Assembly: GCA_903813345.2 (NCBI GenBank)
Contig: CAIIXF020000007.1
Coordinates: 1,615,730 to 1,679,729 of the forward strand
DNA length: 64,000 bases
Source: Owenia fusiformis
Taxonomy: Eukaryota > Annelida > Polychaeta > Sabellida > Oweniidae
Direction of reading: 5' to 3'
The notes below the pieces were generated by a model. It searched no databases. It was not told the DNA's origin and saw nothing but the letters and a program-made list of their open reading frames with translations. Both the position numbers and the translations under genes were made by a program. Position 1 is the first letter of the stretch, and each line of letters begins with the position of its first letter. This document shows positions 43,001 to 63,961 of this stretch, piece after piece.

Positions 43001-46000
43001 AATGACTGTTATATATTGTACGTTAATGTCTCGAGATAGCATCAAATGAAGTCATTCAAATTGAAAAACATTCCAAGCTAATCTATGAAATGTTTTCTGT
43101 TTGAAAGTACACAACTGCATAAAGAATTCCCAGCACTTGCGAATAGTTCCAATTAACACAAATTGACCACTGATTAATCTTCATTAATCTGTAAAAAACA
43201 AATTGTCAATGAGATAATATTGTAAAGAAAACTCCATTTGTATTACAGCTTTCCCCCGGTGGGAGTGAACGATTTCACTTGAGCTCATCCAATCCTAACT
43301 TATCAACCCTCGACACAGACAGGGGTCGACCAATCAGCCTTCCTAACACATTCCTCAACACGTCACCTCCAAGTAAAGAGCAACTAGTCCAGGACAACCA
43401 TTTACGTGAAGATTTTATTGGAACCGCTAAAAATAGTAAGATCATGTTCTTGCACTGAATTTAGAGATGATCATTCGTTCATCAGTTTGTTTCCCAACAT
43501 GAAACCATTGAATTATTCATGAGATTATTATTCCATTAAACAAAGTTTGAGTAGGGATTTAAAGAAGTTGCCCATCTATCTGTTCATCCATCCAGAGTTG
43601 GTAGTCAATCAGCAGGTTGTTAAAAATCAAAACATGATGTCATGTACATGTAATTCCAACTAAATGTAATATTTACTGACATGATTATTTATTTTCAGTT
43701 TATGAAAGTTTGAAAGGCTTGGTGTCAAATATGGACACTGAGAGGGAGAAGATCCGTCATGCTTTGGAGCAAGACTCCCTCGCTCCTTTAGGAGCAACAA
43801 CCAACTATGCAGTAAAACAACAACTCATTGAGGTACCAGCTTGCATTAAACATAACATTAGAAAAATTGTAGAAAGCAAATTTTCTGATTTCCTTTGATT
43901 TTCCAGAATTCAGACTGTAGACTTATAATTTGTAAAATTGTTTACAATTGCTTTTATTAAGTTCATTACCTAAATTAATCATACCTAAATGTTATCTGGA
44001 TTCCAAGCAAACCGCTTAACAGGAAGTTTTGAAATTTTCAATTGGATGTTTCTTTGTTTAAAAATGTATAACCGCTTATTTCTCGGGAATGCTGGGGAAG
44101 TAAAATCTTTGTCACTGGGTGCCTTGGTAAAGTATTAGGGATGTGTTATGTTGCCATTTGTTATCCCAATCTGTGTGTCATTTCTTGTAGGCCCAGAGGC
44201 AGAATGCTGAGCTAAGGGCTAGATTGTCTAGGATAGCTGGAGAGTGTGATGTATCTGGGGTTGTTCCTATACCTACAGTAACAGTGGACTCTGCCCCTGT
44301 ATCTGTGAGTGCTTTTTCTACACTCAACTCACATATAGCATCTAACCAGAGTATATCATGTGTAAAAGGATTTTTGATACCTGATTCTGAGACTTACCAA
44401 TTTTCCTGTACTTGCCTTCCGTCCAGGCAATAACTCAAATACCGTTGGCCCGATTTTGTTCATATTTTGTATACATATTCCCCTATGGGGGCGATTTTCA
44501 AAATGGCCGTTCATTTAAAAATGGTGGCCATTTTTGTGCCAATTTTACAGTAATTTAGGTGAAATATATAAAACTATCATAGCAATATGTTTTAAATGTA
44601 AAAAATGTAGGACATAAATAAAGCTAAAAATGTAGATATTAAAGCAGCACATGGCAGCCATTTTGAAAAATGGCGGCCTTTACTCGTTATTTTACAATTT
44701 TACTACGTAAATTAATATCACTTACCAATTATGTCATTACAATATGCTAAAAGCTACCATAGTCACCTTTTATTGGAACAATTATTTTCCACTTTCACTT
44801 TCGGTTTCCCGGAAGCCCCGCCCACTCTACGTCATAGTCGGGCATGCGCACCATTCATTTTTCTACCATTTTGAAAGTCACACAAAATTTTCAAAAGTGC
44901 GATAAATTGGTACAAAAACGAGCGTTACAAGTCTACTATGTCGACGAATACAACGCAGTTAGATACAACAGAAGGGGTTAATACCCAGGGTGATCCACGA
45001 GTTAGCCCAGCGCGCTCGAACAAAGGTAAATCACCGGTTGTGAAGTCTAAAGTTCTAGAAAAAGACCGGCGTGGCCGTAGAGAAAGTCGAAGTACTTCAA
45101 TTTCTAGTAGGTCAGACTCTGACACTTCGTTTAAAAGACGTAAAAAACATCGTCACAGAGATTCGGCTTCTCCTAAACGGCGACGTCACAGAACTAAATC
45201 TATTTCCTCAAGTCCGAGGGGTAGATACAGATCGAGATCCAGGTCTAGATCCAGGTCTAGATCAAGGAGATCACGTTCTCATTCCTCAAGTCCGAGGGTG
45301 AGATACAGATCTAAAGATAGACTTCACAATCGTAAAAGGTCTAGATCTAAGTCCAGGTCTAGATACAAGTACAAACATAGATCAAAGTCTAGGTCTAGAT
45401 CAAAGTCTTTGTCCTCAAGTCCGAGGAAAAGACACAAATCTTCACATCATAGATCTGCTTATAGGTCTCATAGATCTCCTTCTTTAAGTCCTAAGAAGAG
45501 ATACTATCGTAAACAATCTCCTTCTATAAGTCCTAAAAGGAGACGTTACAGAAATGATAAAGATTCACCCAGATACGATAAGTATCAATGGGAGAGAGAT
45601 CAATTTATCAATCCGAGAATTGATCAGAGACAGGAAATGTTTCAGAATTTCTTGCAAGACCAGCAAGTTCTGAGAGCGATGTATGCAGGATCTGCATACA
45701 TACCTCAAAATATTTCCAAGAAAACACAGTCAAGGCCATGGTCTGTGAATGATGATCACACTCAAGTAAATGATGATCACACACAAGAAAAGGATGATCA
45801 CATTCAAATAAATGATGATCATCAATTTAAATCACCTCCTTCTCTTACAAGAACCATTTCTCTCAATAGAGACGATGATTCAGTTACTATAGAGTTGGAG
45901 AATGATGGTGAACAGGAAGATCCTGATACTAAGCCATCAAATGAGGTGGCAAGAGCCAAATTAGAATTTTTGGCAGCCACTGAAGTCGTTAAAAAATCTT

Positions 46001-49000
46001 TCCCTGAGATAGCAGAGATGTCAACACCTAAGAATAAGGTCAAATCTTGGTCTCTAGTGAAAGATAAACCTTCAGTATTGACTAATTCTTTACAACTGCC
46101 ACTTTGCCCAGGTGTAAAGAACAACTTGATTGAAGGAGTCCCCTTTGCAGATCTCAAAGAACTTATGACTCTTGAGCCCCAAACTGGCAAGTTGTTTCAA
46201 GACAACTTGGCCAAAGTGAAAGAAAATTTGAGGAAAGCTAAAAATGATATAGCGCAGAATCAAATTCTTGACTACACCTCTAAAAAGGAGGACAAAAACA
46301 AACCCAAAACTTCCAATAAGTTCCAGAACAAAGATAGTTCTTTTCGTGGAAAAGGACGGGGTTCAAAGGGGTTTTCTCGAGGAAGAGGCAGAGGTAAATC
46401 TGTCGGTAGAGGAAAGTCCACTGATAAACAGTGACTTATTCCAGGTCGAAAATTACCTCCATACATCGTCAAACGACAAAGTAGGTGGGAGGTTGATGGA
46501 ATTCTGGCAGGAATGGAGTCAAATAAATGCTTCGGCAAAAGTGATAAACCTTTTAAAAGAAGGCTATTATCTTCCATTCAAAGAAAAGCCAAAGTTACAA
46601 AAGACTCCCCTTTGGTCAGAATTTCACAATCCTCTAAAAAGAGCGGCAGTTTTCGACCTAATAAACACTCTCCTAGAGGAGAATGCTATAGAACATGTAG
46701 AAGACATTTCTTCCCCAGGTTTTTACAGTCGAATATTTCTGGTTCCAAAAAAGTCATCCGACAAATGGAGACCCGTGACAGACCTGTCAACTCTAAATCT
46801 TTTTCTGAATGTCCCATCATTCAAGATGGACACTCCAGAAATCATCAAAAGAAATCTGGAGAAGGGAATGTACATGACTTCTATAGACCTTCGACAGGCC
46901 TATTTGCATGTCCCTATCGCCAGGTCTCACCAGAAATATCTGAGATTTGCCGTGAAAGGTCGGGGAGTCTTCCAATGGAAATGTCTTCCATTTGGTCTAG
47001 CAACAGCTCCTTTAATTTTCACAGAGATAGTTTCTCAGATCAAAAAATTCCTTCATTCAATAAATATAAAGATGTTCCAATATCTCGACGATTGGATGAT
47101 AATAGCATCATCACACCAAGTAAGTTCAGAGAACACGCAGACTGTGTGCAACTTAACGAAAAAGTTAGGCTTTCTCCTAAATCTGGAGAAGTCAGAGTTA
47201 AATCCAACTCAGCAACTTACTTACCTGGGCTCACTTTACGACCTAAAGAAAGGTCTAATTTTACCCACTCAATACAGAGTGAAGTTACTCGAAACAGAGA
47301 TACAGCGTTTCCTAGCGAAACCTTTACAAACAGCAAAATTCTGGAAAAGAATTTTGGGTCTCCTAGCGGCAACAGAGAAAATTGTGCCATTAGGGAGATT
47401 GTTCATGAGGGAGATGCAATACGATCTCCAGAGAAATTGGAATGCCTCAAAGGACATGAACATTTTGATTCCATGGTCCAAAATGACAAGACAAGACTTA
47501 GTCTGGTGGCTAAACAAGGACAATCTTGTGAAAGGTGTTCCGATTCAAATGCAGAATTCAGTAGATCTAAAACTGTTCACAGACAGTTCAATGACAGCTT
47601 GGGGAGCACATTTAGAAAATCTAGAAGTTTCAAAGATGTGGTCCAAACAAGATCTGAACCTGCACATCAACATGAAGGAGTTGATGGCAGTAGAGTTAAG
47701 TCTCAAACATTTTCAACCTCAAGTACAGGGGAAAAGGATACAAGTATCCTCAGACAATGCATCCACTGTGGCCTATTTGAAAAATCAAGGCGGCACACAT
47801 TCTTACCAGTTATTCAAGGTAACAAAAAGAATTCTGCTATGGAATCAAGTCAACAATATAGAAATGACAATACGTCATATTCCAGGGAGATTGAACATTC
47901 TGGCAGATGCTCTGTCCAGAAAGTCTCAGATTCTGTCAACAGAGTGGAGTCTGAAAGATCAAATTTTCCATGCAATTTGCAGGAAATGGGGAAAACCTCT
48001 AGTAGACCTTTTTGCGACACGACACAACACGAAATTACCTCTATTTGTGTCACCAGTCCCGGATACGCTAGCATGGGAGGTAGATGCTCTAAGTATGGAT
48101 TGGAAAGGTCTGTGGGCTTATGCCTTTCCCCCGACACCATTAATCTCTCTTGTTCTGAACAAGATGTTGCAAACGACAAATGTGGAAATGATTCTCATTG
48201 CCCCATTATGGGAGAAACAAGCATGGTATCCCAGACTGTTAGAGTCTCTTGTAGAGAAACTTCTAAACATTCCAGTAGTTCCAAAAATGTTGAAACAGAC
48301 AAGACAATGGGTATTTCATCAAAATCCCCAAATATTCAAGCTTCACGCTTGGAGGCTGTCAAACAATCCTTTAAAAACAAAGGCTTTTCAAACAAGGTTG
48401 CAGAAAGAATTGCAAAACCTCAAAGAAACTCCTCGATCAAGGTATATGACTCGAAATGGAGAGTCTGGGCTGGTTGGTGTTCTGAACGGAATAGAGATCC
48501 ATTCAGAACTTCTGTTACTGTAGTAGCCGATTTTCTGAATTGGTTATTTGAAGATAGAAAACTTCAACCAGTTACTATAGCAGGATACAGAACAGCCTTA
48601 GGTAATACTCTGAAAGAAACTTCGAATTTAGATATTGGTTCAGATCCTTTGATTTCTTGTTTGCTATCTAATTTCAAACAAGAAAGACCGAGGAATATCT
48701 CTAATAAAATTCCAAACTGGGATTTAAATGTGGTCCTACAAGGTCTTATGAGACCTCCTTTTGAACCTATCGAAATTGTTGATTTAAAATATGTCACGTG
48801 GAAAACGGTTTTTCTCACTCTGTTAGCTTCTGCAGCAAGACGCAGTGAGATACATGCCTTGGTGCTTAAGAAGGTGTCACATAGTATTGACTGGCAATCC
48901 ATTTTTCTGGGATTCAAATCTGACTTTGTACCCAAGACCTTACTAAAGGCTGGAGGTACTGTCCTGAAGGACATTGAGATAAAAGCCTTAACAGGTTTTT

Positions 49001-52000
49001 TGACACCAGATCTTCAAGATGACAAACTTTTATGCCCTGTTAGAGCATTAAAAGTTTATATGAGAAGATCAAAGCCCATGAGAGATAAACAACAAAGATT
49101 GTTTATATCATACAAGAAAGGCTATAAAGAAGAGATACATGCTAACACAATAACTTCATGGGTGAAGAATTGTGTAGCAAAGGCATTACAGTCTTTTCCC
49201 AAGCATGCTGAGCAGGTTTATAAGGTTAAAACTCACCAACTCAGAGCCTTATCAACTTCCATTGCTTTTGCGAAGAATTGCACTCTAGACGAGATTATTC
49301 AAGCTGGAAGATGGACTAACTTTAACACGTTCGCTTCATTCTACTTAAAGGAAGTGTCCTTGAAAGACTTCGAAGGCAACCACTTCATTGCTGCGAACAA
49401 AACTGTTTAAGTAAGTTTTAAAGTCTTATAGTTCATAATTCTACCAATAAAAGGTGGAAAGTTTTGGTTATTCATCTCCAATTATTTGTTATCAATAATT
49501 AAGATATGAATAACAAAGGAGTGTGCTTGGATAAATTATTTTCACTTGTTACTTTTAGTTTTGCGTTGCAAAATTATTTAACTTAATATCCTACGGTAAG
49601 GATAATGATTCAAGTACGAATTCTAATCAGTTAATGCTGTTTTTGGACTATTTTATTTTCTAAGCTAATATCCCTCCACCTGCTCTGGTGGGATTCAGCA
49701 TATTGTAATGACATAATTGGTAAGTGATATTAATTTACGTAGTAAAATCCCAAAATTTTATGTAATTTTGGTTTTTATAAGTTAATTATACTTACCTATT
49801 ATGTCATTACATCAAAAGCCCTCCCTTGCCACCCCGCTTATCAGCTTTAAAATAAGCGTTTCACCTAGTGAAAAATGAATGGTGCGCATGCGCGACTATG
49901 ACGTAGAGTGGGCGGGGCTTCCGGGAAACCGAAAGTGAAAGTGAAAGTAGAAAATAATTGTTCCAATAAAAGGTGACTATGGTAGCTTTTAGCATATTGT
50001 AATGACATAATAGGTAAGTATAATTAACTTATAAAAACCAAAATTACATAAAATTTTGGGATTTTTGCTGTAACTCGAAAAGTAGTTGAGCGATTTTGTT
50101 CATATTTGGTATGTGAATACTATAAGCATGGCACACTGTCTAATGACATTTTTGGTAGAAGGCGGCCATTTTTTAAAATGGCCACCATTTTAACGTATAT
50201 TTCTATAACTGGAAAAGTAGTGGAGTGATTTTGTTCATATTTGGTATGTGAATACTATGACACTTTTGGTAGAAGGCGGCCATTTTGAAAAATGGCTGCC
50301 ATTTTAACGTTTTTTCTATAACTTGAAAAGTAGTAAAGCGATTTTGTTCATATTTGATATGAATACTCATGAGCCTTGCACACTGTCTCATGACACTTCG
50401 GATAGTAGGCGGCCATTTTAAAAATGGCTGTCATTTTTACATTTTTTACTTTAACTCAAAAAGTAGTGGAGCGATTTTGTTCATATTTGATATGTGAATA
50501 CTTTAAGCATGGCACATTGTCTAAAAAAACTTTGGGGAGTAGTCGGCCATTTAAAAAATGGCCACCATATTTATGTGTGTTATTTTACAGTACATGTGTG
50601 CGATTTTTCAAAAATTTTATAGGTGGCTACTTAAAAGCAAATTAATTCTTCTGATGACAACTTGGCTAGTGAGCAACCATTTCAAAAATGGTGGCCTTTC
50701 TTATGTGTGTTGTTTTATTATATTTGCCATATATTTCGTTTTTAAAAATGCCAGCCATTTCTGTTCGATGGGATTCGCTACGCTTTGGCGTTGCCGATGT
50801 TCTGGTTTGTGATGGTTCCTGCACAATATTAGCAGTTTGATCGGCTGCATTATCCCAATGGAAAAATTTAGAGTTTGGCTGAATGGTTAAGTTTTAATCA
50901 ACTTACCATATTACTACTTTTTGTTGATTTTCTGTCCCACTGGTACATCATTGACTAGCAGGATTTCAGAAATGTTCATGAAAACAATGAACATCAATTT
51001 TCCCTCAGAACATTAGTAATTCAAATAAGAACAAACAAAAAATAGGGATCCTTCATTTGCACATATTGATACATTTTCTGTAATGGTAAATTGTGTGACG
51101 TAAAAAGTGCCTTGCCTACCCAAATGTCAAGTTGCCATAGTAACCCTTATTTTTGACCAATCAAATAAGAGATGCCGATATTATAAGAATCAATCAGAAA
51201 GTATTTTTTGTACATTGTGTGAAAATTTCATCAGAGAATATCAAAAATCGTTCAAATGAGAGTATTTTTCCGGGAACTTATTGAACGACCTGGTAAATCA
51301 TTTGCAAAACTAAACTGTGATTATTGTTTGTATTGCAGCCAAGGCCAACCATGACACATTCAATCTCAGCTGATAGTACTTCTATATGTGAATTCTTTGA
51401 TGCCAATGAGTACCTGATGTCAAGTGAAGCCTCCAGTGATATATCTGATGAGGAAGATGATGCCTCCAGTGATATCTCTGATACGGAGAATACAACTCCT
51501 GGCGAAAGTGGTCAGTAAACAATTCATTTCAGTGTTTTAGAAATTGTAAGGCTTTCTTTATATATGGTGTTTTGACTAATGATAGTATTTAGAAGTTATT
51601 TTTTGAAGGATTTGTCAAAATCATCAAAATCATGTTTACAGTTCACTGTGTGCTACCAATACATGAACGTTTTCTCATTATCACATTTGACAGTAGAACC
51701 TGACTTTGCAAAGTTTTAATGTGTATACTTTGATAATTTGTCAAATCTGTGTGAAGCTGGATATTTATAAATGTGCATATTTTAGGTTCATTAGATATTG
51801 TAATCATTTTATTTTTGTTTTTCTTTATTTTTAATTTCCTAGTTACCTCTAGAAAAGTGAAAGGTATAACCCCACTTGCCTCTTGTCGCAATATCAATTC
51901 TTCCTGATTTGATTTTTTGCTATGTTTAGGCCAGCGAATAGTAGTTCTTTGGTTACTGCAGATTTACAGTGCATATATGACCGTGAACCATTGACTAAGA

Positions 52001-55000
52001 ATTACAATTTTGTGGCCTTATTGCACAATTTCTATTACCTTTTGCCTATTGTTATGCCTTGTCTTATCTTATTTTGAAATACGTATCACTATTGGAATTG
52101 CAACTTTTTTCCATTTTATTATCCATATTTTACGCATTCATGCATTCATTTCTACAATACCATACATTTTTGTTTTGCATTGATTTAATGTGATCTCAAC
52201 TGATTAACTGTATAACACTTTATCCAACCATTTCACTTCAAATCAGTACATAAATTGATTTCTTTCATATTTTGGGGATTTTATCATTATGCATAAATTG
52301 GAAATTCTTATTCCAAATGACTGAATGAATTGATACGAATGGGAAGGTGTAAGATATGATATTATGATTTTAATGATAGTGTCTAAATAATTTGCGCCAT
52401 CAAAAGAATCTGGTGAAACTTTTTTTGAAAACATACAACTTCAACATGCTGTTAGTGTATAAGTTTGTATAAATCTATTAAACAACTGTGAATAGTCAAA
52501 CTTTGACTAGTAGGTATTCAAAAAAAGATTTGTACTTAAGTCTTTTGATGATGCAAGCTCCAAATCATTATAGATTAAAATTTCAGAGACCGATTTCTTA
52601 TAGATTCTTAAAAAGAGATGATCTATTGTCAACATTTTATGTTAGTATTTAACAGAAATATAGACTCTCTGAAATCTGAATTAATGTGAAGCATAATTAT
52701 GATATTCATCTGCAAATTAACATTTGTCAGAAATTAAAGCAATGTCCGAATCCATGTTCCCAGTTACATTTTAGGACTGCTATCAGATCCAGGTATCTTT
52801 AAATGCAGTTTTGCCAACAACAATAATTTAGGTTTGGAAACTTTTATGAAATTCAACCTATACTAAATAAATATATCTTATAGGGTCGATACCTGTAATT
52901 CTAATTCTTAATAATCTTCAGGTATTTTAATTCATAATGATATGTGACTTTCATAATTGATATACTTGGACAAACATTCTTTTCAAATATCAAAGCTTGA
53001 AAAACATTCTCACCTTGTACGACAAGTGCCAAAATTGAAAAAACGACAAGCGCCTTTTTGTTGTTGATTTCAAATCCGTTTGATTCACTATCGACATAAA
53101 CACTTTTTTCTAGCTTTAATAATTACTGAAAAGAACGATTGTGTCCAAGTCTGTTGATTGTGTAAGTTGCACATCATTATGAATCAAAAATATTTAATTG
53201 TTATTTAGGATGAGAAAATACAGCTATTGGCCCTTTAAGTTCCTTATAATTGTAATTGTAAATGGATATAGTTGCACATATAGACATTTAAGATTATTTG
53301 AATTTGATGGTGCATGGTGAGAACTTGTAGGTGTGTTCTGTTACAGTTAGGTTTATAATCTATACCAGTCCCTATAGGGTGTCAAATACCCCCCCCCCCC
53401 CTCCCAGTACAACCAAGACTATTGAGGTCATATCAAGTGTGATATACCACTGGAAAGAACATTGAAAGTTACATTGAACAACCATGATAAACATTTCAAT
53501 ATTAAATATTTGTACTAGCAATTTTGTAACAAATGTTATTTATGTAACAGTTAGAAATATAAAGAATTCATCCAAAGTATCTTCACTTAAATGCTATATC
53601 ACACATGTTATTATATTCAGCAGTTTTACAAAAGAATGGGAAGGGTGTAACATACTTATTTGACACCCTGTGTAGTTGTATTCACACAATCCTTTAGTAA
53701 AATGCACAGTTATCCTTAAATCAGACTTCTGTGGTATGTTACTGGTTGGAAATTCAGTATATTGTGTTTAACAGCTTGAATAGTAGTACATCTACTTGCA
53801 TGGGTCCGATATCACTTACAGATGTTACTCTCTACATCTGTATAACTACAAAATGAGTAACTTTACAAATACTTGAATTTGACATGAAATATTCAATGTT
53901 ATTTCAGGGCTGTTGCTAGGCTTTTTGGCTGTGGCAAAAAATGAGAGCTATTTTTGAAAATCATGCTCAAAACAGATGGGGTCACCTAAACCCTTCAGTT
54001 CTCTTGGCTATGGGCCTGCTATGCATAATCATTGCCACATTGTTTTATAGTAGTATATAGGGGATAGGACAATTTTTGCACATAATTTAAGCATTTAAGC
54101 CAAAACCGGAATAAACCCTGGTGAAAGCCCTGTATTGTTTCAAATGCACAATACCAGAAGTGAATATTTAATATCTCATGTAACATGTGTCTTATGTAAA
54201 AGTCTAACATAAATCCGCATCATTTCAATTTCTGTTTTTCTTCTCCTTTAAACCAACCCTATTCATATAAGAGTGTAACGGAAAAGTCTCATGTTTCAGT
54301 GGCTGAAGTTGATGACCAAGGGTGCCCCCGTTACCTGACTGGACGGCGTACCAAGCTTCCCTCCCCACGTCCTGATACGGGTGATGTTAGCCTATGGGGT
54401 CTGCTATGCAGAAATATCGGAAAGGATCTCTCAAAGATATCAATGCCAGTAACCCTGAATGAACCTCTCAATATGCTGCAGGTAGGGTAGTCATGGGATT
54501 TACATAATGGGTGGTTTTGTATGTATAATTTGAAAAAGAATTTTGCATGAAAATTGCTACATCTGATGATTGTGAATTTAATAAATTAATTGTGTATTAA
54601 ATAGAAATATGTAACTATTGTGTGAGACCCTGATTTTGAGAAAACTGATAAATATTTTATTGTTAGCTGTGGTCATTGGTGGTGGCAGCTTGAATATCCT
54701 TATTGGTCATGTATGTCACATACTAGTCTTTGTGCCTGCTTTGGTTTTATTACTGGTACTCAATAATTGGGTGAATTCTTGTTTTAGTGGCTATGTGAAG
54801 AATTGGAGTACAGTGAAATGCTAGATAAAGCTGCAGAGATACAAGACCCTGTACAGAGAATGGTAAGAACTATATTTGAATACAGTACCTTCATTTTCAA
54901 TCTAAACAATTTACAGTCTAAACAATTTCCAACATGTTATGTTATGTTTATTTGAGTTTAACATGCCTTCAATGGCATCAAGCTATTGCCAGCTTAAGAG

Positions 55001-57704
55001 AGATATGATTAGTACAGTAAAAATTCAGTTTTGAAAGTTCGATAAAAAGAATCAAATCATATCATATTTAAAATATCACTGTACCTTAAGTCATCATGCA
55101 GTGCATTATGGGAAAACGTGTTGTGTTTTCAGGTTCATATGGCAGCATTTGCAGTTAGCGGATATGCATCATCATACTATAGGTGTGGTCAGAAACCATT
55201 CAATCCACTGCTTGGAGAGACATATGAATGTGTCAGAGAGGACAAAGGCTGGAGGTTTATATCTGAACAAGTAAGAATAAAACATCATTCATGGAATTCT
55301 GTGTATTCTAAATTTAAAGATGCTGTCTGGTTATATTTAATTCACCATTGAAATATTACAGTGTGTAAAACTGGAAAATATGTGGTCATTTTCACTTTAG
55401 ATGTCTTGATTTACAAACTGCCAACTATGTTACACCTTCTCCATGGCAACAGCCAGTTGTATGCTCAGGATAATTTATAGCTGCTTTCTTTTGTTTCAGG
55501 TCAGTCATCATCCCCCTATATCAGCATGTTACTGCGAGTCAAAGAACTTTGTTTTTTCACAAGGTAAGAAGGTCCTATAAAATATTATTTTTGGCATCAT
55601 GTATTCCCGTGTCGTGCCATTGTCAGTTTGTCTAGCGGGAATTCTACATGATTGTAACTTATTACATATTGATTTTACATTTTTACATTTTTAAAAGAAT
55701 TCTTTTTACAAGAACCTGAAAATAATCTTCCTAGATGACTTGATGTGAAATCTTTTTAAAAGTATGAGAAAGGAATGGTCAAAGTTTATTCTGTAGTGTT
55801 GATTATATGTATAGTTTTTTCTGAATATCATGTCTTTTTGTAGATGCCCAGATAAAGACAAAATTCTGGGGGAAATCTATGGAGATCCAACCTGTAGGAG
55901 TAGTCTGTGTTAAACTTCCAAAGTAAGTGACTTTGTTAGTACATACATGTATTTACTTACTCAGGGAACCATATTTATTGCATATCAATATTAAAGTCAA
56001 TGCATATCAATATTAAACTTTTATAAAATTGACCTAATCGGGGTTTAGTCCAAAATGTTTTATTGACAAGGCATTTCTTGTATATTATGTAAAATTTGAC
56101 TTTACACAGTATATAATTTTTGTGTATACCAGTTGTCCTGTGAAGCTTGTGAAAAAATCTGTTGTTTGTGGTTTACTGTTGTTTGTATAATCATGTGTCT
56201 TGTAAACTGTCACTGTGGCGTATACTCTATATTGTTATATAAACACTATTGTTTGACTTTATAAATCAAACTTAAAGAAGAAGTTCATTTTTTAGATTCA
56301 ATGAGCAATACCAGTGGAATAAGGTTACAACGTGTGTTCACAATATATTAGGTGGTCAAAGGTGGTCTGAACAGTATGGAGAGATGAACATTAAATGTGA
56401 CAATGGCATCACATGCAAACTCACTTTTACTAAGGTAATACAATGAACATAAATAACAATAAACCATGTATGAAATTAGGTATCGTGTTCCTAAAAATAA
56501 CAAGGGACTCCAATTAGGAAGCCATTAAAGTTTCTAAACATACAGAACTACTAGATGAGATTCTTATATTATATTAAAATAATTATAATAAAGTAGGTAT
56601 AAGGATATAGATGAAATCCAAAGAATGATATTCAAGAAACAAGATTTTAGAGATCAGTGTTCATTTTTGTGATGAATGAACAAAGTTTTAGCAAAAAGAA
56701 TTCGAGTAAAAGTTGTCTTTTGGTTTGCTATTTAAGGTTTCATATCAAAGATAGAAACAGTTGCCCAGTCTTGTCAACTTAATTATCTCTGTGCAATGCT
56801 TTTTAATTTGACTCTTTTGCAGGCAAGTTATTGGTCTGAGAAATGTCATGAAGTCTATGGGAGTATTTGTAATGCTGATCGTAAGGTCTTGACGCACATT
56901 TTTGGGAAATGGAATGAGGGGATCTACTCTGGTCATGCCCCCTCTGCTAAGTGTATCTGGCGACCAGGTGCAATGCCAGAGGACTATGAACTATATTATG
57001 GTTTCACAAGGTATGTCTGGGTGGTTCATGCTACTTTCTGTTATTGCAACCAACCATATTCATGTCTGCTGCTTGATAGAATGTTAAATGTCTATAGATT
57101 TGCCATAGAAGGAGGGAATATTTAACTTAAGATGGTCTTATATTGTGATGAAAATGTCATATTGATGTCTTTATTATAGGTTTGCCATAGAGTTGAATGA
57201 ACTATGTCAGGAAGATGCCAAGCTGCTTCCTGCAACTGACACAAGATTCAGGACTGACCAGAGATTGCTTGAAGAAGGAAATGTGCAAGGGGCGGAGAAT
57301 GAGAAACTACGATTGGAACTTATGCAACGTGAGAAACGGAAACGTCGGGAAGAGGAAGGCATCAAGCATGAACCTCGATGGTTTAGGTATGATCAAATCT
57401 AAAATTTGATAATGTTGTTAATTGCAGTTGCACTGGATGAGATTCAGTTTTTGGATTTGGCATCAGAGTTCAAACGTATTGGAATTTTTGCTGTGTGCTG
57501 TGGAACTTTGTTTATACTATAAATTACTTTTTGCCAAATTAAATGATCTCCTAAGTAATAAGACTCGGTTCAAATATTTCCAATGTTTCTGCTTGCAGGA
57601 GGTTAACCAGTGATAAATCAGAGAACTATGTGTATGGTGGACAATATTGGAACAAAAGAAAAGATCCAGGGTTTGCACGACTGACATTCCCTAAACTTTG
57701 GTAG
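21736..57704 (+). CDS. OSBPL6: Oxysterol-binding protein-related protein, OSBPL3/6/7 subfamily (21 coding exons)
   Basis: Lipid-transfer/sensor protein acting at contacts between the ER and other membranes. Coding exons: 21736-22014, 32509-32721, 34569-34622, 35749-35862, 37550-37724, 38090-38239, 38658-38761, 41673-41789, 43249-43435, 43699-43832, 44191-44304, 51339-51510, 54300-54481, 54788-54862, 55133-55270, 55500-55563, 55844-55922, 56296-56434, 56823-57010, 57180-57386, 57599-57704. All junctions have GT/AG and matching phase and give 996 residues. Seen in order: a Lys/Ser-rich N-terminus, a PH domain (about 143-250, [16 protein letters not shown]), a coiled linker, FFAT motif EFFDANE (565-571), and the ORD (about 625-990) with [12 protein letters not shown] and EQVSHHPP (735-742). 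Close to vertebrate OSBPL6/3/7. An invertebrate probably has one pre-duplication member, so the symbol is a nearest name, not an orthology claim. Confidence 0.95.
22755..22866 (+). repeat. Dispersed repeat R1, copy 3
   Basis: Longest copy. AGTGGTGACATATTGTG at the start is shared with the 38312 copy. ATCTGTAACAAATGGC and GTGGTGACATTTTGCA are shared with the 3308 copy. Confidence 0.65.
24796..24936. repeat. Foldback MITE-like repeat, 141 bp
   Basis: AGCCTAGGGTAAGAGAGGG and AATATCCCAGAATTCA at the left pair imperfectly with TTGAATTATGGGATAT and CTTCCCTAAGGTAGCCT at the right. Confidence 0.75.
25532..25707. mobile_element. Short hAT-type MITE
   Basis: CAGGGGTTTCATTAG at the left end and CTAGTGAAACCCCTG at the right are flanked by identical TATACATG (25524-25531; 25708-25715). 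176 bp, no coding capacity. Confidence 0.9.
29230..29434. mobile_element. MITE with CAGTGATCTCC inverted ends
   Basis: CAGTGATCTCCCCAG and its near-inverse CTGTGGAGATCACTG bound 205 bp that contain a repeated TTGCACCCACTTGA motif. No clean target duplication is visible. Confidence 0.7.
30534..30776. mobile_element. MITE with about 22-bp inverted ends carrying CCAAT and CRE-like motifs
   Basis: AACATACCTATGATGATGTA at the left and TACATCATCATAGGTATGTT at the right. The inside is GC-richer than its surroundings and contains ATTGGTC, TGACGTCA and CCAATCA within about 40 bp (about 30629-30661). Confidence 0.75.
30781..30893. repeat. 113-bp long hairpin
   Basis: TTATGTCACTATCGTGGCAC with ATATGCCC at the left pairs with GGGCATATATGCC and ACGATAGTGACATAA at the right. 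The inner arms also pair partly (TCTCAG/CTGAGA). It begins 4 bp after the preceding MITE. Confidence 0.85.
32509..32721 (+). CDS. OSBPL6: OSBPL exon 2 (PH domain start)
   Basis: [16 protein letters not shown], then [16 protein letters not shown] and the PH start [28 protein letters not shown] is the subfamily signature before the PH domain. Donor GTAAGT. Confidence 0.95.
32842..32883 (+). pseudogene. Decayed partial copy of OSBPL exon-2 3' end
   Basis: GAAAAGAAGCAAATAGCC then TATAAAGGTTGGCCCAAAG resembles the exon-2 end at 32687-32724 (GAAAAGAAGGAAATGGCC, TATGAAAGGCTGGCACAAAG). The donor position reads GA instead of GT, so it cannot splice. About 155 bp downstream, in direct orientation. Confidence 0.6.
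33094..33582. mobile_element. hAT-type MITE in OSBPL intron 2
   Basis: TAGGGCTGCCATC and GATGGCAGCCCTA ends, flanked by identical TCTACAGT (33086-33093; 33583-33590). Subterminal GTCGAC/TCGACA motifs. 489 bp. Confidence 0.92.
33928..34105. mobile_element. Tigger/pogo-like MITE, copy 1
   Basis: Starts TA|CAGTGAAACATGT and ends with the diverged inverse (TTCCACTTAGACATGTTTTA). Repeated GTAGAACACCT motifs inside. A sister copy is at 34710-34871. Confidence 0.65.
34569..34622 (+). CDS. OSBPL6: OSBPL exon 3 (PH domain)
   Basis: 18 codons, [18 protein letters not shown], the second and third PH strands. Acceptor TTTTCAG, donor GTGAGT. Confidence 0.95.
34710..34871. mobile_element. Tigger/pogo-like MITE, copy 2
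   Basis: CAGTAAAACCTC...GGTTTAACTG ends flanked by TA on both sides (34708-34709; 34872-34873). It shares GGTGTTCCACTTAGACA with copy 1. Lies in OSBPL intron 3. Confidence 0.78.
35749..35862 (+). CDS. OSBPL6: OSBPL exon 4 (PH domain)
   Basis: [20 protein letters not shown], then [14 protein letters not shown], aligning with the KGKVHGSIDVGLSVMS region of OSBPL6. Confidence 0.95.
35863..37549 (+). other. OSBPL intron 4
   Basis: Contains the CCCAACGAACAAA-ended element at 36091-36836 and a CAGTGTACAGTG-type microsatellite just before it (about 35986-36030). No exon. Confidence 0.6.
36091..36836. mobile_element. TIR element with TCCG-rich subterminus
   Basis: Exact 15-bp inverted ends, ATCCCAACGAACAAA and TTTGTTCGTTGGGAT. 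A TCCGTCCGTCCG run lies at 36131-36182, and AAAATGGCC-type blocks alternate inside. The right flank GCTACTCCGCGGAGTTGCC resembles the flank at about 50772-50798. Non-coding. Confidence 0.75.
37550..37724 (+). CDS. OSBPL6: OSBPL exon 5 (PH C-terminal helix)
   Basis: [20 protein letters not shown] with RQHKI, the PH C-terminal helix with its conserved Trp, followed by a Ser/Thr/Glu-rich linker. Ends in phase 1. Confidence 0.95.
38090..38239 (+). CDS. OSBPL6: OSBPL exon 6 (linker)
   Basis: [15 protein letters not shown], then Ser/Arg-rich sequence and [16 protein letters not shown], matching the KVAAWLQDSEEMDRC segment of the family. Confidence 0.92.
38312..38435 (+). repeat. Dispersed repeat R1, copy 4 (diverged)
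   Basis: AGTGGTGACATATTGT, then GTTCAGCATATGTAAT and GTGCTGACATTTTGTCATG parallel the 22755 copy. Lies in OSBPL intron 6. Confidence 0.5.
38658..38761 (+). CDS. OSBPL6: OSBPL exon 7 (coiled linker)
   Basis: [20 protein letters not shown] and a Ser/Gly/Pro tail, equal to the DLAHCQSNLVELSKLLQNLE coil of OSBPL6. Confidence 0.92.
39411..40039 (+). mobile_element. Deleted mariner relative of the 10941 element
   Basis: Ends CAGGGTGTCAAAAAAC and its inverse, flanked by TA (39409-39410; 40040-40041), with the same C-run near the ends. Only the transposase C-terminus remains. Confidence 0.88.
39665..39885 (+). pseudogene. Mariner transposase C-terminal relic
   Basis: Reads [42 protein letters not shown] and DHTNY with stops between. 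This is colinear with the C-terminus of the intact transposase at 11188-12288. The catalytic Asp residues are deleted. Confidence 0.85.
41673..41789 (+). CDS. OSBPL6: OSBPL exon 8 (basic linker)
   Basis: Lys/Arg/Ser-rich, [20 protein letters not shown] through LPRKSL. The end has a duplicated donor context (CCTCGTAAGA at 41775, CCTCGTAAGT at 41786). Only the second keeps phase with exon 9. Confidence 0.8.
41790..43248 (+). other. OSBPL intron 8
   Basis: About 1.46 kb, AT-rich. No repeat family or exon recognised. Confidence 0.5.
43249..43435 (+). CDS. OSBPL6: OSBPL exon 9 (linker)
   Basis: [20 protein letters not shown] matches MSPVRLHSSNPNL of OSBPL6. It then runs to [11 protein letters not shown]. 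Phase 1 end. Confidence 0.92.
43699..43832 (+). CDS. OSBPL6: OSBPL exon 10 (helical linker)
   Basis: [20 protein letters not shown], then [16 protein letters not shown] and AVKQQLIE. A predicted helix preceding the coil of exon 11. Confidence 0.92.
44191..44304 (+). CDS. OSBPL6: OSBPL exon 11 (coil)
   Basis: [19 protein letters not shown] matches the NQNAELRSRLNRIHSE block. Donor GTGAGT at 44305 opens the intron that holds the DIRS element. Confidence 0.92.
44938..46434 (+). CDS. DIRS ORF1, gag-like protein with RS-repeat domain
   Basis: 498 residues from ATG at 44938. Residues about 38-200 are an SR-protein-like tract ([11 protein letters not shown] blocks and SSSPRxR repeats). About 268-300 hold four NDDHTQ-type repeats. 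The C-terminal third is a helical region ([20 protein letters not shown]) typical of DIRS gag, ending in a Lys/Gly/Arg-rich tail ([13 protein letters not shown]). TGA at 46432-46434. A nucleic-acid-binding or capsid role is inferred from position. Confidence 0.85.
   Translation: MSTNTTQLDTTEGVNTQGDPRVSPARSNKGKSPVVKSKVLEKDRRGRRESRSTSISSRSDSDTSFKRRKKHRHRDSASPKRRRHRTKSISSSPRGRYRSRSRSRSRSRSRRSRSHSSSPRVRYRSKDRLHNRKRSRSKSRSRYKYKHRSKSRSRSKSLSSSPRKRHKSSHHRSAYRSHRSPSLSPKKRYYRKQSPSISPKRRRYRNDKDSPRYDKYQWERDQFINPRIDQRQEMFQNFLQDQQVLRAMYAGSAYIPQNISKKTQSRPWSVNDDHTQVNDDHTQEKDDHIQINDDHQFKSPPSLTRTISLNRDDDSVTIELENDGEQEDPDTKPSNEVARAKLEFLAATEVVKKSFPEIAEMSTPKNKVKSWSLVKDKPSVLTNSLQLPLCPGVKNNLIEGVPFADLKELMTLEPQTGKLFQDNLAKVKENLRKAKNDIAQNQILDYTSKKEDKNKPKTSNKFQNKDSSFRGKGRGSKGFSRGRGRGKSVGRGKSTDKQ
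46268..48523 (+). CDS. DIRS ORF2, reverse transcriptase and RNase H
   Basis: Frame open over 751 codons, overlapping ORF1 by about 167 nt in another frame. The true start is unknown. RT motifs: [33 protein letters not shown] (Asp about 207), [13 protein letters not shown] at 272-275. RNase [12 protein letters not shown] (Asp 439), [34 protein letters not shown]. The C-terminal extension ([23 protein letters not shown]) is usual in DIRS. All catalytic residues are intact. Confidence 0.93.
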   Translation: MTTPLKRRTKTNPKLPISSRTKIVLFVEKDGVQRGFLEEEAEVNLSVEESPLINSDLFQVENYLHTSSNDKVGGRLMEFWQEWSQINASAKVINLLKEGYYLPFKEKPKLQKTPLWSEFHNPLKRAAVFDLINTLLEENAIEHVEDISSPGFYSRIFLVPKKSSDKWRPVTDLSTLNLFLNVPSFKMDTPEIIKRNLEKGMYMTSIDLRQAYLHVPIARSHQKYLRFAVKGRGVFQWKCLPFGLATAPLIFTEIVSQIKKFLHSINIKMFQYLDDWMIIASSHQVSSENTQTVCNLTKKLGFLLNLEKSELNPTQQLTYLGSLYDLKKGLILPTQYRVKLLETEIQRFLAKPLQTAKFWKRILGLLAATEKIVPLGRLFMREMQYDLQRNWNASKDMNILIPWSKMTRQDLVWWLNKDNLVKGVPIQMQNSVDLKLFTDSSMTAWGAHLENLEVSKMWSKQDLNLHINMKELMAVELSLKHFQPQVQGKRIQVSSDNASTVAYLKNQGGTHSYQLFKVTKRILLWNQVNNIEMTIRHIPGRLNILADALSRKSQILSTEWSLKDQIFHAICRKWGKPLVDLFATRHNTKLPLFVSPVPDTLAWEVDALSMDWKGLWAYAFPPTPLISLVLNKMLQTTNVEMILIAPLWEKQAWYPRLLESLVEKLLNIPVVPKMLKQTRQWVFHQNPQIFKLHAWRLSNNPLKTKAFQTRLQKELQNLKETPRSRYMTRNGESGLVGVLNGIEIHSELLLL
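46513..49410 (+). CDS. DIRS ORF3, tyrosine recombinase
   Basis: The frame is open for 965 codons. The recognisable recombinase is the last 350 or so residues, from about 48350: N-terminal SAM-like core ([16 protein letters not shown]), then catalytic Arg in ARRSEIHAL (48841-48843), His-x-x-Arg in HQLRAL (49234-49245), AGRW, and the nucleophile Tyr in FASFYLKE (49342-49344). The part before about 48350 overlaps ORF2 in another frame and has no recognised domain. It may be non-coding openness or a genuine overlap as described in DIRS-1. The catalytic set is complete. Confidence 0.88.
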   Translation: MESNKCFGKSDKPFKRRLLSSIQRKAKVTKDSPLVRISQSSKKSGSFRPNKHSPRGECYRTCRRHFFPRFLQSNISGSKKVIRQMETRDRPVNSKSFSECPIIQDGHSRNHQKKSGEGNVHDFYRPSTGLFACPYRQVSPEISEICRERSGSLPMEMSSIWSSNSSFNFHRDSFSDQKIPSFNKYKDVPISRRLDDNSIITPSKFREHADCVQLNEKVRLSPKSGEVRVKSNSATYLPGLTLRPKERSNFTHSIQSEVTRNRDTAFPSETFTNSKILEKNFGSPSGNRENCAIREIVHEGDAIRSPEKLECLKGHEHFDSMVQNDKTRLSLVAKQGQSCERCSDSNAEFSRSKTVHRQFNDSLGSTFRKSRSFKDVVQTRSEPAHQHEGVDGSRVKSQTFSTSSTGEKDTSILRQCIHCGLFEKSRRHTFLPVIQGNKKNSAMESSQQYRNDNTSYSREIEHSGRCSVQKVSDSVNRVESERSNFPCNLQEMGKTSSRPFCDTTQHEITSICVTSPGYASMGGRCSKYGLERSVGLCLSPDTINLSCSEQDVANDKCGNDSHCPIMGETSMVSQTVRVSCRETSKHSSSSKNVETDKTMGISSKSPNIQASRLEAVKQSFKNKGFSNKVAERIAKPQRNSSIKVYDSKWRVWAGWCSERNRDPFRTSVTVVADFLNWLFEDRKLQPVTIAGYRTALGNTLKETSNLDIGSDPLISCLLSNFKQERPRNISNKIPNWDLNVVLQGLMRPPFEPIEIVDLKYVTWKTVFLTLLASAARRSEIHALVLKKVSHSIDWQSIFLGFKSDFVPKTLLKAGGTVLKDIEIKALTGFLTPDLQDDKLLCPVRALKVYMRRSKPMRDKQQRLFISYKKGYKEEIHANTITSWVKNCVAKALQSFPKHAEQVYKVKTHQLRALSTSIAFAKNCTLDEIIQAGRWTNFNTFASFYLKEVSLKDFEGNHFIAANKTV
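49694..49802. repeat. DIRS internal complementary region
   Basis: The first half (to TTTACGTAGTAAAA) is the reverse complement of the element's left end. The second half (from TCCCAAAATTTTATG) is the reverse complement of its right end. They abut as expected for the circular junction used as replication template in the DIRS model. Confidence 0.95.
51126..51293 (-). mobile_element. Truncated copy of the CCAGGTCGTTC mariner MITE
   Basis: In reverse orientation starts CCAGGTCGTTCAATAAG next to TA (51294-51295) and shares TTTCTGATTGATTCTTA and GGGTTACTATGG with the full element at 60489-61088. Internally deleted and lacks the other end. It sits 45 bp from the exon-12 acceptor. Confidence 0.8.
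51339..51510 (+). CDS. OSBPL6: OSBPL exon 12 (FFAT exon)
   Basis: [20 protein letters not shown], then an acidic Ser/Asp stretch with ASSDISD repeated twice. Carries the FFAT motif. Phase 1 end (G|V). Confidence 0.95.
51390..51410 (+). other. FFAT motif (VAP-binding)
   Basis: EFFDANE fits the EFFDAxE consensus at all six fixed positions and is followed by an acidic/Ser tract. FFAT motifs bind the ER proteins VAP-A/B, so it would anchor the protein at ER contacts. Motif seen; binding is family knowledge. Confidence 0.93.
51511..54299 (+). other. OSBPL intron 12
   Basis: AT-rich. Contains the short MITE at 53375-53670 with a C-run. No exon seen. Confidence 0.6.
53375..53670. mobile_element. 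Short MITE of the CAGGGTGTC mariner family
   Basis: TAGGGTGTCAAATA and TATTTGACACCCTG ends, a C-run after the left end, and GTGTGATATACCACTGGAAAG shared with the 10941 element. About 296 bp, no transposase. Flanking TA is clean only on the left. Confidence 0.8.
54300..54481 (+). CDS. OSBPL6: OSBPL exon 13 (ORD start)
   Basis: [20 protein letters not shown], then [20 protein letters not shown], the start of the oxysterol-binding-related domain (lid and first strands). Confidence 0.96.
54788..54862 (+). CDS. OSBPL6: OSBPL exon 14 (ORD)
   Basis: [20 protein letters not shown] and PVQRM, equal to LCEEMEYSELLDKASE of OSBPL6. Confidence 0.96.
55133..55270 (+). CDS. OSBPL6: OSBPL exon 15 (ORD)
   Basis: [40 protein letters not shown] and RFISEQ. 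Includes the phosphoinositide/sterol pocket motif and the start of EQVSHHPP. Confidence 0.97.
55500..55563 (+). CDS. OSBPL6: OSBPL exon 16 (ORD signature)
   Basis: [20 protein letters not shown]. With exon 15 it makes the EQVSHHPP family signature, whose His pair contacts the phosphoinositide head group in known structures. Confidence 0.97.
55844..55922 (+). CDS. OSBPL6: OSBPL exon 17 (ORD)
   Basis: [20 protein letters not shown] then [17 protein letters not shown] is conserved. Phase 2 end. Confidence 0.95.
56296..56434 (+). CDS. OSBPL6: OSBPL exon 18 (ORD)
   Basis: [32 protein letters not shown] and CKLTFTK, matching the WNKVTTCIHNIL region. Confidence 0.96.
56459..56590 (+). repeat. Duplicated segment D1, copy a
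   Basis: Shares GTGTTCCTAAAAATAACAAG and neighbours with 59365-59495 in the same orientation. Lies in OSBPL intron 18. Confidence 0.75.
56823..57010 (+). CDS. OSBPL6: OSBPL exon 19 (ORD)
   Basis: [35 protein letters not shown], then [19 protein letters not shown]. Highly conserved block. Phase 2 end. Confidence 0.97.
57098..57125 (+). pseudogene. Decoy copy of the OSBPL exon-20 start in intron 19
   Basis: TATAG|ATTTGCCATAGAAGG resembles the real acceptor TATAG|GTTTGCCATAGAGTT at 57175-57194. Splicing here keeps the phase (Arg-Phe-Ala-Ile-Glu) but reaches TAA at 57123-57125 four codons later (Gly-Gly-Asn-Ile). Confidence 0.6.
57180..57386 (+). CDS. OSBPL6: OSBPL exon 20 (ORD C-terminal)
   Basis: [34 protein letters not shown] and a charged helix ending [12 protein letters not shown], as in the PTDARFRPDQRFLEEGN region. 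Confidence 0.97.
57599..57704 (+). CDS. OSBPL6: OSBPL exon 21 (stop)
   Basis: [20 protein letters not shown] and TFPKLW, then TAG at 57702-57704. TYWELRKDPGF...LW is the family's C-terminus. Confidence 0.96.
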
Positions 57705-61424: not shown

Positions 61425-62344
61425 GTAAGTGACTGTTTTTACCATTGAAACCTATGACATCCCAACCAACACAATTAATAAAAACAAGTGGGTGATAACA
61501 ATAGCCCAACCATGTGAGCTAACAAGTGCTGACTTCTATTTATTCAACTATTCAGCAACTCCCTTAAATCAGCCCTTACTTTCAATGTTTTCAGAATTTG
61601 GTTGAAACTCATTTCTTGCAACGAAGCTATACCACAACATATTTCATACATGTCATACCTTACTCAATTTTTGAATTAATAAAATGTATTTTTATAAAAC
61701 AAAGAAAACGACTTATTTCAATAGCTTTATTTTATTGTAAAATGTGTAAATGCATAATGCTGTGTAAATAGCTATAATGGTGAGTGATTGTGCTATTAAG
61801 AAAATAAGATTGGTTACAAAATCTATTGATTGATGGTGCAAGTTATATGTTACTGTATATTGCTTTAATTTGACGGCCATTTTAATTTGGCTGATTTGAC
61901 GGAAAGATAAAAAATTAAGTCTCAGCCAATTTTTTGAAAAAATCCCTGGGACCTAAGGACTCCTTGAGAATTCTTTCAATATTTTGATTGTAAACATATT
62001 TTTTACAGCTTAGCTCATATATGTAGGTAAAACCTCCCTGTGTCACCCAAGAGTAACCTGGCCATTTGACTTGCTAGCCAGCCTTCCGATATCCATATCT
62101 GCCATATCAAATAGCAGTCAAAATTCCAAAATTTGCCCAATCTGCCAAATTAAATAACACAAAATTAAAGCAATTTACAGTATTCTGAGGTACTGAGCCC
62201 TCTTAGTCTAAATTAAAGGCAGAATCAGATCTATAGGGGGTGCCAAATTTGATGGTAAAGTAATAAAGGATTGAAAGTCCAAAAATAAGGGAAAATGTTT
62301 AAATTCTCCAAAATAATAAAAATGGTAACCATAATTATAGAAAC

Positions 62345-62896
62345 AAGGCACAGGGTGAACAATATCATACCTAAAACATAGCAGTGTGGGCTTGAAGACC
62401 CAGAAATCAAGATGGCCGCTGAAAAGTTAATCAGTTCTTAAACTTCTTAAGTACGATAAAAACTAGAATAACTATCACCTGAGATTGAATGTGTCATGGT
62501 TGGCCTTGGCTGCAAAACAAACTGGAATTGTGATGACAAGATTTATCAAAAAACTTCAAGATGGCCACCAGAATGCAAGATGGCTGCCAAAACGTTAATC
62601 AGCTTTAGAACTTCTTACCATGTTACATGTGTGAAAATTTGAAGTAAATTCGTTAAGTGGTTTTTATGGAATCGGGATGACAAGATTTATCTAAAAACAT
62701 CCAAGATGGCCGCCAGAATCCAAGAAGGGCACCCAAAAGTTAATCAGCTCTAGAACTTCTTCCCATGTAACATGTGTGAGAATTTGAAATAAATCCGTCA
62801 AGAAGTTTTCCTGGAATCGTAATGACAAGAAAGTGAGATGCCGCCCGCCTGTCAAGCTGACGACAATATCGTACCTTTTTTTAGGTACGATAAAAA
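62345..62896. mobile_element. Pearl/HINE-like element, rearranged
   Basis: The left end (AAGGCACAG; ATATCATACCTAAAAC) and right end (CGCCCGCCTG; hairpin ATCGTACC...GGTACGAT) match the 9826 element. The core is different (GGCCGCC/GGCTGCC repeats), and a second internal 3'-end-like scar lies at about 62450-62458 next to an exon-12 fragment. Confidence 0.72.
62464..62522 (-). pseudogene. Inverted fragment of OSBPL exon 12, copy A
   Basis: On the minus strand it reads TTTGTTTTGCAG|CCAAGG... through ATTCAATCTCAGGTGA, homologous to the intron end and exon start at 51329-51384. The acceptor AG is kept. The fragment stops where HINE 3'-end sequence begins. Confidence 0.82.
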
Positions 62897-62897
62897 C

Positions 62898-62961
62898 TAG
62901 AATTACTATCACCTGAGATTGAATGTGTCATGGTTGGCCTTGGCCTTGGCTGCAATACAAA
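62898..62961 (-). pseudogene. Inverted fragment of OSBPL exon 12, copy B
   Basis: Minus-strand TTTGTATTGCAG|CCAAGGCC, with a 6-nt CCAAGG duplication that keeps the frame. It reads [17 protein letters not shown] and then runs into the pearl/HINE end and a stop. 435 bp from copy A, with the same junction. Confidence 0.85.
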
Positions 62962-63398
62962 TTAATACATTATTGTAAAAATCTTTAGTATTCTTAAAAT
63001 AAAGTATGCACTTTGGGGATTTTTAGAAAAAAAGAAATGACAATAAATGAAAAATGAACTGAAAAATATTCGAAAATAGAACGATTTTTGTCTAACTTGT
63101 TCACTATATCTGATTCTCCCTTTAATAGAGATTCATAAATGCATAAAATATATATTATTGAGACATTCATCACAATAGAAGCAATAATAACATGCAAAAT
63201 CTATATCTTTTTATGCAAAAATGCTTGTACAAAAGTATATCTCAACACTGTTCAAGCTCAGAGTAGAGATTTCTGAATAACAACATCCATGCATGTGTTG
63301 TTTCCAACTAAGGCTAGGCCAAGTTGAAAAGCCCGTCAGCAGATTTCTACCATAATAATAACACAATAATATACACAAAAATCACTCAAGTTGCACTC

Positions 63399-63961
63399 TA
63401 AAGCCCTGTATACACTGTAAATTGCATTTCAACCATTTCAAGCGTTTCAATCAGTTCAATGGTTTCAATGCTTGCAGCATTTCCTCGGTTCCAATGCTTG
63501 CATCATTTTGAACATTTCAACAGTTCTACATCTACATTAATAATTTGCAAAAGGCTAATAACCCATTTACAGCAAATATATAATATAACATAACATAACT
63601 TATGATGACATATCCCAGACAAGACAACTTCCCCATGGTTGATGTTAGTTTCAATGAATATACTTTCAAAAATTAAAATTTTGTTGCTTGCACCTGTTTC
63701 GCCATTTCGAGCATTTCAATAACACGACAAAAGGAAAAAAGTGAAATAAGAACATAAAAGTTACTAGTTTTAAACATTTTCCCTGACTTTTCAACCGTTC
63801 AAATTTCAATCTGTACATCTTTGAAAATAAAATAACATTTTTGCTGCTTGCGCCTGTTTTGCCATTTGAAGCATTTCAATCGATTTCACTTTCATTTCAA
63901 GCAGTTTGGTTGTTTCACCTTCATTTCAAGCATTTTGCCTGCTAGTGTATTTAGGGCTTTA
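63399..63961. mobile_element. TTTCAA-rich element with TAAAGCCCT inverted ends
   Basis: TAAAGCCCTGTATACACT at the left and AGTGTATTTAGGGCTTTA at the right. The interior has many CATTTCAA / GCATTT direct motifs. Target duplication not clear. Non-coding. Confidence 0.65.

Follow-up and report, generated by a model that had tools for sequence, protein, structure and literature searches.

Two antisense copies of an exon edge at the end of and inside a HINE-like element: a probable templated insertion

How does a piece of a host gene, spanning a splice site and turned to the opposite strand, come to adjoin one end of a transposable element and to occur once more inside it? The question is raised by the window, the 64,000-nucleotide stretch of DNA analysed here (C7:1615730-1679729 of a 498-Mb assembly), which is crossed on its plus strand by a gene of the oxysterol-binding-protein family. 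One exon of this gene starts at 51339 and, on translation, encodes a peptide that includes the FFAT-like sequence EFFDANEY. We take this sequence to be an FFAT motif and the gene to belong to the ORP3/6/7 type. For a downstream exon, ORP3 is the best relative among solved structures (PDB; E 1.2e-19), and the stop codon lies at 57702-57704, at the end of the final exon. Upstream of the FFAT exon, on the strand of the gene, an open frame at 46253-48523 carries reverse transcriptase and RNase H and also matches a Dam-methyltransferase Pfam entry with a score below the cut-off. This set is presumably that of DIRS-type retroelements. A Pfam search of the frames 44875-46434 and 46435-49410 returned no match. 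The features on which the following account draws are collected in Table 1.

Table 1. Coordinates of the features in the window (positions are those of the window)
Feature	Position	Strand	Basis or remark
Likely donor segment: 13 nt of intron end (TTGCAG acceptor) and first 46 nt of exon	51326..51384	+	alignment, translation
Oxysterol-binding-domain exons of the donor gene	54389..57396	+	domain matches; structure relatives; translation
Left half of host MITE (X)	62213..62343		comparison with fetched copies
HINE/pearl-like non-autonomous element, ~145-bp tandem repeats	62342..62896	- (inferred; presumed 5' end 62896)	family comparison
Opposite subterminal inverted repeat, 14 nt	62363..62376		complementary at 93% to 62879-62892; other element end 21 nt away
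~12 nt of HINE end (AGTACGATAAAAA) repeated beside copy A	62450..62462	-	alignment
Fragment copy A	62464..62522	-	alignment; within HINE array; base 62522 may belong to array unit
Perfect 10-bp hairpin TATCGTACCT...AGGTACGATA (subTIR and complementary inverted repeat)	62867..62892		4 nt from element end
Fragment copy B	62898..62961	-	alignment; 6-nt GGCCAA duplication; final 3 bases (AAA) common to MITE
Right half of host MITE (X)	62959..63125		comparison with fetched copies

The preliminary description of this DNA held that about 57 bp of the exon edge, with its 3' splice site, recur twice on the opposite strand 11 kb downstream, at 62464-62522 and 62898-62961, and local alignment bears out both the homology and its limits. 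Copy A aligns without gaps (51326-51384 against 62522-62464, minus strand) and is identical to the exon at 55 of 59 sites, differing at the other four, whereas copy B (51327-51384 against 62961-62898, minus strand) shows two mismatches over 58 sites together with a 6-nt insertion, a duplication of GGCCAA. Local scores against the exon are 91-98; copy A reaches 98, and 300 dinucleotide shuffles gave 26 at most. A and B deviate from the exon alike at two sites; A has two more differences, and B has the GGCCAA duplication. Both copies start after the same junction, ...GTACGATAAAAA-C-TAGAA, and both are joined, as had been claimed, at the same terminal nucleotide of the HINE/pearl-like element. 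The acceptor and the 6-nt insertion ascribed to copy B are likewise present. The open frame ascribed to it means little, because it stops after 22 codons, within the HINE end, and the same exon-like frame of copy A stops after 20.

A fragment present in several places could also be part of a repeat family from which the exon itself was derived. This relation, which the preliminary description had set against its own reading, is not supported. Three places were found when 201 bases (51320-51520) were compared with the whole assembly at E<=10, namely the exon, A and B (all three candidates scored). A 25-mer search with up to three mismatches returned the same three without mismatch and one other place with three mismatches. 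The absence of the fragment elsewhere holds for the sequence of the assembly, which may contain gaps, and for the sensitivity of the tools. Judged from these comparisons of sequence, the donor is likely the exon and not a repeat, and since the fragment was found at the donor and at this site only, there is no sign of dispersal by a transposon.

The element that copy B abuts contains a tandem array with a period of 145 and 2.1 copies; arrays are longer in other copies of the family. It ends in AACAAGGCACAGGG at 62342 and in TTTTTATCGTACC at 62896. In 20 fetched copies, the latter end has the form ...TATCGTACC(T)nAGGTACGATAAAAA or a degenerate variant, beyond which the copies diverge. BLAST alignments ran past this end in two of the 20, by 10 nt in L010 and by 25 nt in L025; the second over-run is taken as chance, its flank being otherwise unlike the fragment (score 14). 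CTAG at 62897-62900 was considered as a canonical Helitron 3' terminus and rejected, since in the 20 other copies divergence sets in once GATAAAAA or its degenerate form is passed, ahead of CTAG. A second copy of the family lies in the window at 9823-10546, on the same strand and 73-86% alike, with unmatched sequence between its two parts. Elsewhere, the copy at L023 (G000:C8:23292647-23296781) holds an array with a 789-bp higher-order repeat in three blocks.

Which end of the element the fragment touches bears directly on how it came there. Published HINEs carry subterminal inverted repeats (subTIRs) whose distance from the 5' end is 2-4 nt and from the 3' end ~38-60 bp (PMC4067079), and in oyster the left flank is described as consisting of a subTIR, a microsatellite and, 1-12 bp from the subTIR, a complementary inverted repeat (PMC7492417). 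The end at 62896 resembles this arrangement. Its subTIR is 14 nt long, within the 11-15 bp of HINEs, and lies 4 nt from the terminus, within their 2-4 nt. A complementary inverted repeat is found 6-8 nt from the subTIR. Beside the hairpin lies a C/G-rich stretch whose length varies from copy to copy; its microsatellite-like nature is judged from the copies only. Central tandem repeats, often present in HINEs, are found as well. The palindrome of HINEs near the 3' end is missing: the 39 nt at the 62342 end fold at -0.7 kcal/mol, no better than shuffles, and the presumed 3' end contains no stable palindrome. On account of the position of the subTIR, the complementary repeat and the C/G-rich stretch, 62896 is probably the 5' end of the element, which would then lie on the minus strand. 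Because the palindrome is missing at the presumed 3' end, we call the element HINE-like and infer its polarity.

Candidate autonomous relatives were sought through Helitron_like_N, which has 58 matches in the assembly. TATCGTACCT, with up to one mismatch, is absent from 12 loci of 11 Helitron_like_N elements, and no autonomous Helentron with the same ends was seen there, although these loci may stop short of the element ends. At one of the loci, L054:6528-7616, tandem units of ~162 bp lie downstream of the Helitron_like_N frame and are 66-69% like the body of the window element; L054 also holds a 23-nt piece at 87%. The Helitron_like_N matches are spread over contigs C13, C515, C505, C158 and others, frequently small ones, and many fall within open frames 2000-3300 aa long, a pattern that could reflect preferred chromosomal regions or an effect of assembly.

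The site itself is informative about the target. Together, the HINE and fragment B interrupt a MITE at an A-run. With 62897-63420 as query, 39 other places all start at query position 59-67 (~62955-62963) among the best 40 of 1734 candidates. Both halves of the window MITE occur in order in nine of ten fetched copies, the tenth (L036) holding the right half only; the halves abut or overlap in eight of these nine and are 13 nt apart in L033. The left neighbour in nine of the ten copies is window 62253-62343 or part of it. The ends of the MITE are TTAAAGGCAGAATCTGAT and ATCTGATTCTCTCTTTAA, and when the window flanks are joined it is intact except for an A-run of uncertain length. Since HINE and fragment B lie together inside the older MITE, B can be read as filler between the HINE end and the target. 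Directly left of the host MITE, 61851-62184 is another repeat, with 21-nt inverted arms and at least 30 other places.

Target-site duplication by the HINE was also considered. Helentrons are reported, in the passage cited, to make none (PMC4067079). Across 15 copies with both ends, the window copy included and one of them (L026) anchored at the wrong place, the mean was 2.07 against 1.80 for permuted pairs; target-site duplication was rejected, there being no excess over the permuted pairs. TAGA occurs on both sides of the window HINE, a run of four that is within chance. As to an oligo-T target, the window site has the A-run of the MITE, and the flanking bases vary in other copies.

The preliminary description read the locus as transduction of a host exon edge past the 3' terminator of the element. 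Such an origin would have a HINE lying antisense in the exon transpose past its own end and take ~60 nt into the MITE, with a partial tandem duplication afterwards. It would explain why the fragment begins at most 1 nt from the element end, it would make HINE and fragment a single unit and hence a clean insertion into the MITE, and bypass of the 3' end has been shown experimentally for the Helitron Helraiser (PMC4778049). However, the abutting end resembles a HINE 5' end, with its subTIR 4 nt in, inverted repeat and C/G-rich stretch, and because this end is probably 5', read-through past a 3' terminator fits poorly. A replicative element would also be expected to remain beside the donor exon unless lost, and none is there: the exon is uninterrupted across 51384/51385, and the only other HINE match found in the window is the copy at 9823-10546, 41 kb from the exon. 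The genome check that had been proposed, for other HINE 3' ends followed by the same fragment, found it beyond the end in none of the 20 other fetched copies (their flanks score 12-18, A and B 91-98), and assembly searches did not find it elsewhere. Transduction past a 3' terminator is therefore not supported, and we regard it as unlikely.

Nor does the locus look like what is left of a larger inverted gene duplication whose remainder decayed or was deleted. The shared chromosome, the distance of 11 kb and the inversion would agree with such a remnant, but copy A, 93% identical inside, breaks off sharply on either side, no other match in the window at E<0.5 was obtained with 240 bp around the exon as query, and the flanking sequences belong to a HINE end and a MITE. 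This origin is very improbable.

A different order of events is suggested by short matches at the junctions. The fragment might have entered the MITE first, by TATAGAA and AAA microhomology, with the HINE inserting alongside later and independently. TATAGAA of the MITE equals TATAGAA of the donor edge, and AAA is common to the other junction. Yet TAGA(A) on both sides of the HINE would then need to be a target-site duplication, which is not seen beyond chance in the 15 copies and would be contrary to what is reported of Helentrons (PMC4067079). The 7-nt match of MITE target and donor edge occurs in 2.3% of random placements (P ~0.023) and leaves the order of HINE and fragment open. Entry of the fragment before the HINE thus has a low probability in our judgement, about that of transduction.

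The relation between the two copies is clearer. In the first unit of the array, 73 nt stand in place of the 49 nt that other units have between ...AACTTCTTA and TGGAATTG...; the 73 nt consist of AGTACGATAAAAA, C and the fragment (48 by 72 nt if the last C is assigned to the array unit), and the start-to-start spacing of units at copy A is 168 instead of 145. Because A contains the junction of HINE end and fragment, the B-type junction came first and A second, and because A and B have two differences from the exon in common, a single capture preceded the second copying. Tandem duplication, to which the pair had earlier been attributed, does not account for A, since a single such duplication would bring the whole HINE end and the rest of that end is absent.

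The arrangement is probably the outcome of a templated (filler) insertion from 11 kb away, made during or after insertion of the HINE and followed by a second short template switch. Insertion of the HINE, or a later break at its junction, would leave a free 3' end, for which the exon, at a distance of 11 kb, would serve as template for ~60 nt in inverted orientation. The copied strand would then re-anneal to the MITE at a short A-run, AAA being common to donor and MITE. A later template switch would copy the last 12 nt of the HINE end together with the fragment into the first array unit of the HINE, giving rise to copy A. On this account, the fragment would be a scar of repair that has no function in itself.

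At the locus, an antisense exon-edge copy of ~60 nt separates the HINE end at 62896 from the right half of the MITE, and no target-site duplication beyond chance is seen. A patch at a break between HINE and MITE explains the single place, the intact donor, the inversion and the loss-free target. Templated insertion is favoured by the 20 other HINE copies, whose flanks do not resemble the fragment, by the intact donor elsewhere, and by the lack of a target duplication and of a poly(A) tail. The AAA at the MITE junction would be microhomology of the usual kind. Since the fragment includes 12-13 nt of intron, the template would be DNA or unspliced RNA, not spliced mRNA. Template switching has been described to yield inverted templated insertions with microhomology of 3.7 bp on average (PMC8421209). 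Against templated insertion stand the HINE junction, which shows no clear microhomology and one unexplained C at 62897, and the distance of the template: the detection signature for inverted insertions in the cited paper uses templates within 100 bp (PMC8421209), whereas here the template is 11 kb away. The small number of substitutions in the age match, the 7-nt likeness of MITE and donor edge, the missing 3' palindrome and the two BLAST alignments that overrun the element end likewise speak against it.

Divergence gives a rough order of ages. Copy B differs from the exon at two of 58 sites. Compared with the family majority, the two ends of the HINE show differences at two of 62 and two of 63 sites, and its last unit and tail at 13 of 206. 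The fragment and the HINE insertion could be of similar age, a comparison of two to four substitutions. In the host MITE copy, 62 of 297 columns differ, some of them poorly aligned, and eight of nine other MITE copies differ at 4.6-13.4%, the ninth (L037) at 23.9%. On these few sites, the fragment is probably younger than the MITE.

The preliminary description further suggested that antisense copies of a host exon could pair with the pre-mRNA. The complementarity is real: it covers the 3' splice site at length, and the predicted duplexes reach -94.7 and -93.4 kcal/mol. Pairing with the 3' splice site, however, follows from being a copy, and since ~4.8 kb separate the stop codon from the copies downstream of it, pairing would need read-through or minus-strand transcription. 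A role in splicing is accordingly unsupported. That the copies were selected here as an antisense splicing regulator, or as a small minus-strand exon, is an idea we consider very improbable. Both copies do contain CAG/GTGATAG where the gene has CAGCTGATAG, and this could be seen as favouring an exon; it is regarded as an incidental, weak donor-like sequence. Against selection, only 12-13 nt of intron accompany the acceptor, A and B carry private changes, and their frames end after 20-22 codons. For a gene on the other side that could take up the fragments as minus-strand exons, the next 10 kb offer only three open stretches, of 98-108 aa, the longest being 108 aa, a weak test in that a gene of small exons is possible.

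Among known systems, the element is closest to HINE, pearl and Cg_HINE elements (PMC4067079, PMC7492417). It resembles those described there in its subTIRs, complementary inverted repeat and microsatellite-like stretch, as well as in satellite-like central repeats of ~145 bp and no excess of target-site duplication; at this one site, the target is an oligo-A/T run. Unlike in the mite HINE families described (PMC4067079), the subTIR is 21 nt from the presumed 3' end instead of 38-60, and, in contrast to the anatomy given in these sources (PMC4067079, PMC7492417), the presumed 3' end bears no stable palindrome. The host sequence flush with a Helitron-family end recalls the 3'-end bypass of Helraiser (PMC4778049), but by anatomy the end is probably the opposite one, and there is no donor element.

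A closer parallel is the capture of filler DNA by Helitrons (PMC6544945), in which a host fragment is gained at a rolling-circle transposon by break repair with short junctions. In the cases described there, the fragment is internal and multiplied with the element (PMC6544945), whereas copy B lies just outside the end, and multiplication was seen for neither B nor the internal copy A. One might go further and suppose that Helentron insertion leaves an unligated 5' junction that is patched from nearby DNA, so that gene capture by HINEs would start as filler and later enter the array. We consider this general scheme improbable. If it were true, B and A would show the route in two steps, and should it apply to HINE insertions in large number, it would help to explain how elements of the Helitron family first gain gene fragments.

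The locus is a well-bounded case of a host-gene fragment at the end of a HINE-like element and inside its array, with donor, target and empty site all readable within one assembly, and it cautions against immediate reading of such fragments as 3' transductions or antisense regulators. The event itself has its nearest counterparts in class 2 TSIPs, which, as characterised in PMC5110952, are likewise short copies from elsewhere with no target-site duplication and an intact donor, and have short microhomology at one junction, a part that AAA may play here, and in MMBIR-type templated insertions, with which it shares the inverted orientation (PMC8421209). The paper on class 2 TSIPs favours patches derived from RNA (PMC5110952), whereas here DNA or unspliced RNA is possible. 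In contrast to both kinds as described in these sources (PMC5110952, PMC8421209), the case here comes from a reference assembly, its donor lies 11 kb off on the same chromosome, and the fragment adjoins a transposable element at its end and was copied a second time. Set beside these systems, the locus is probably an ordinary, though neat, local repair scar with a HINE-like element, an event of a known kind.
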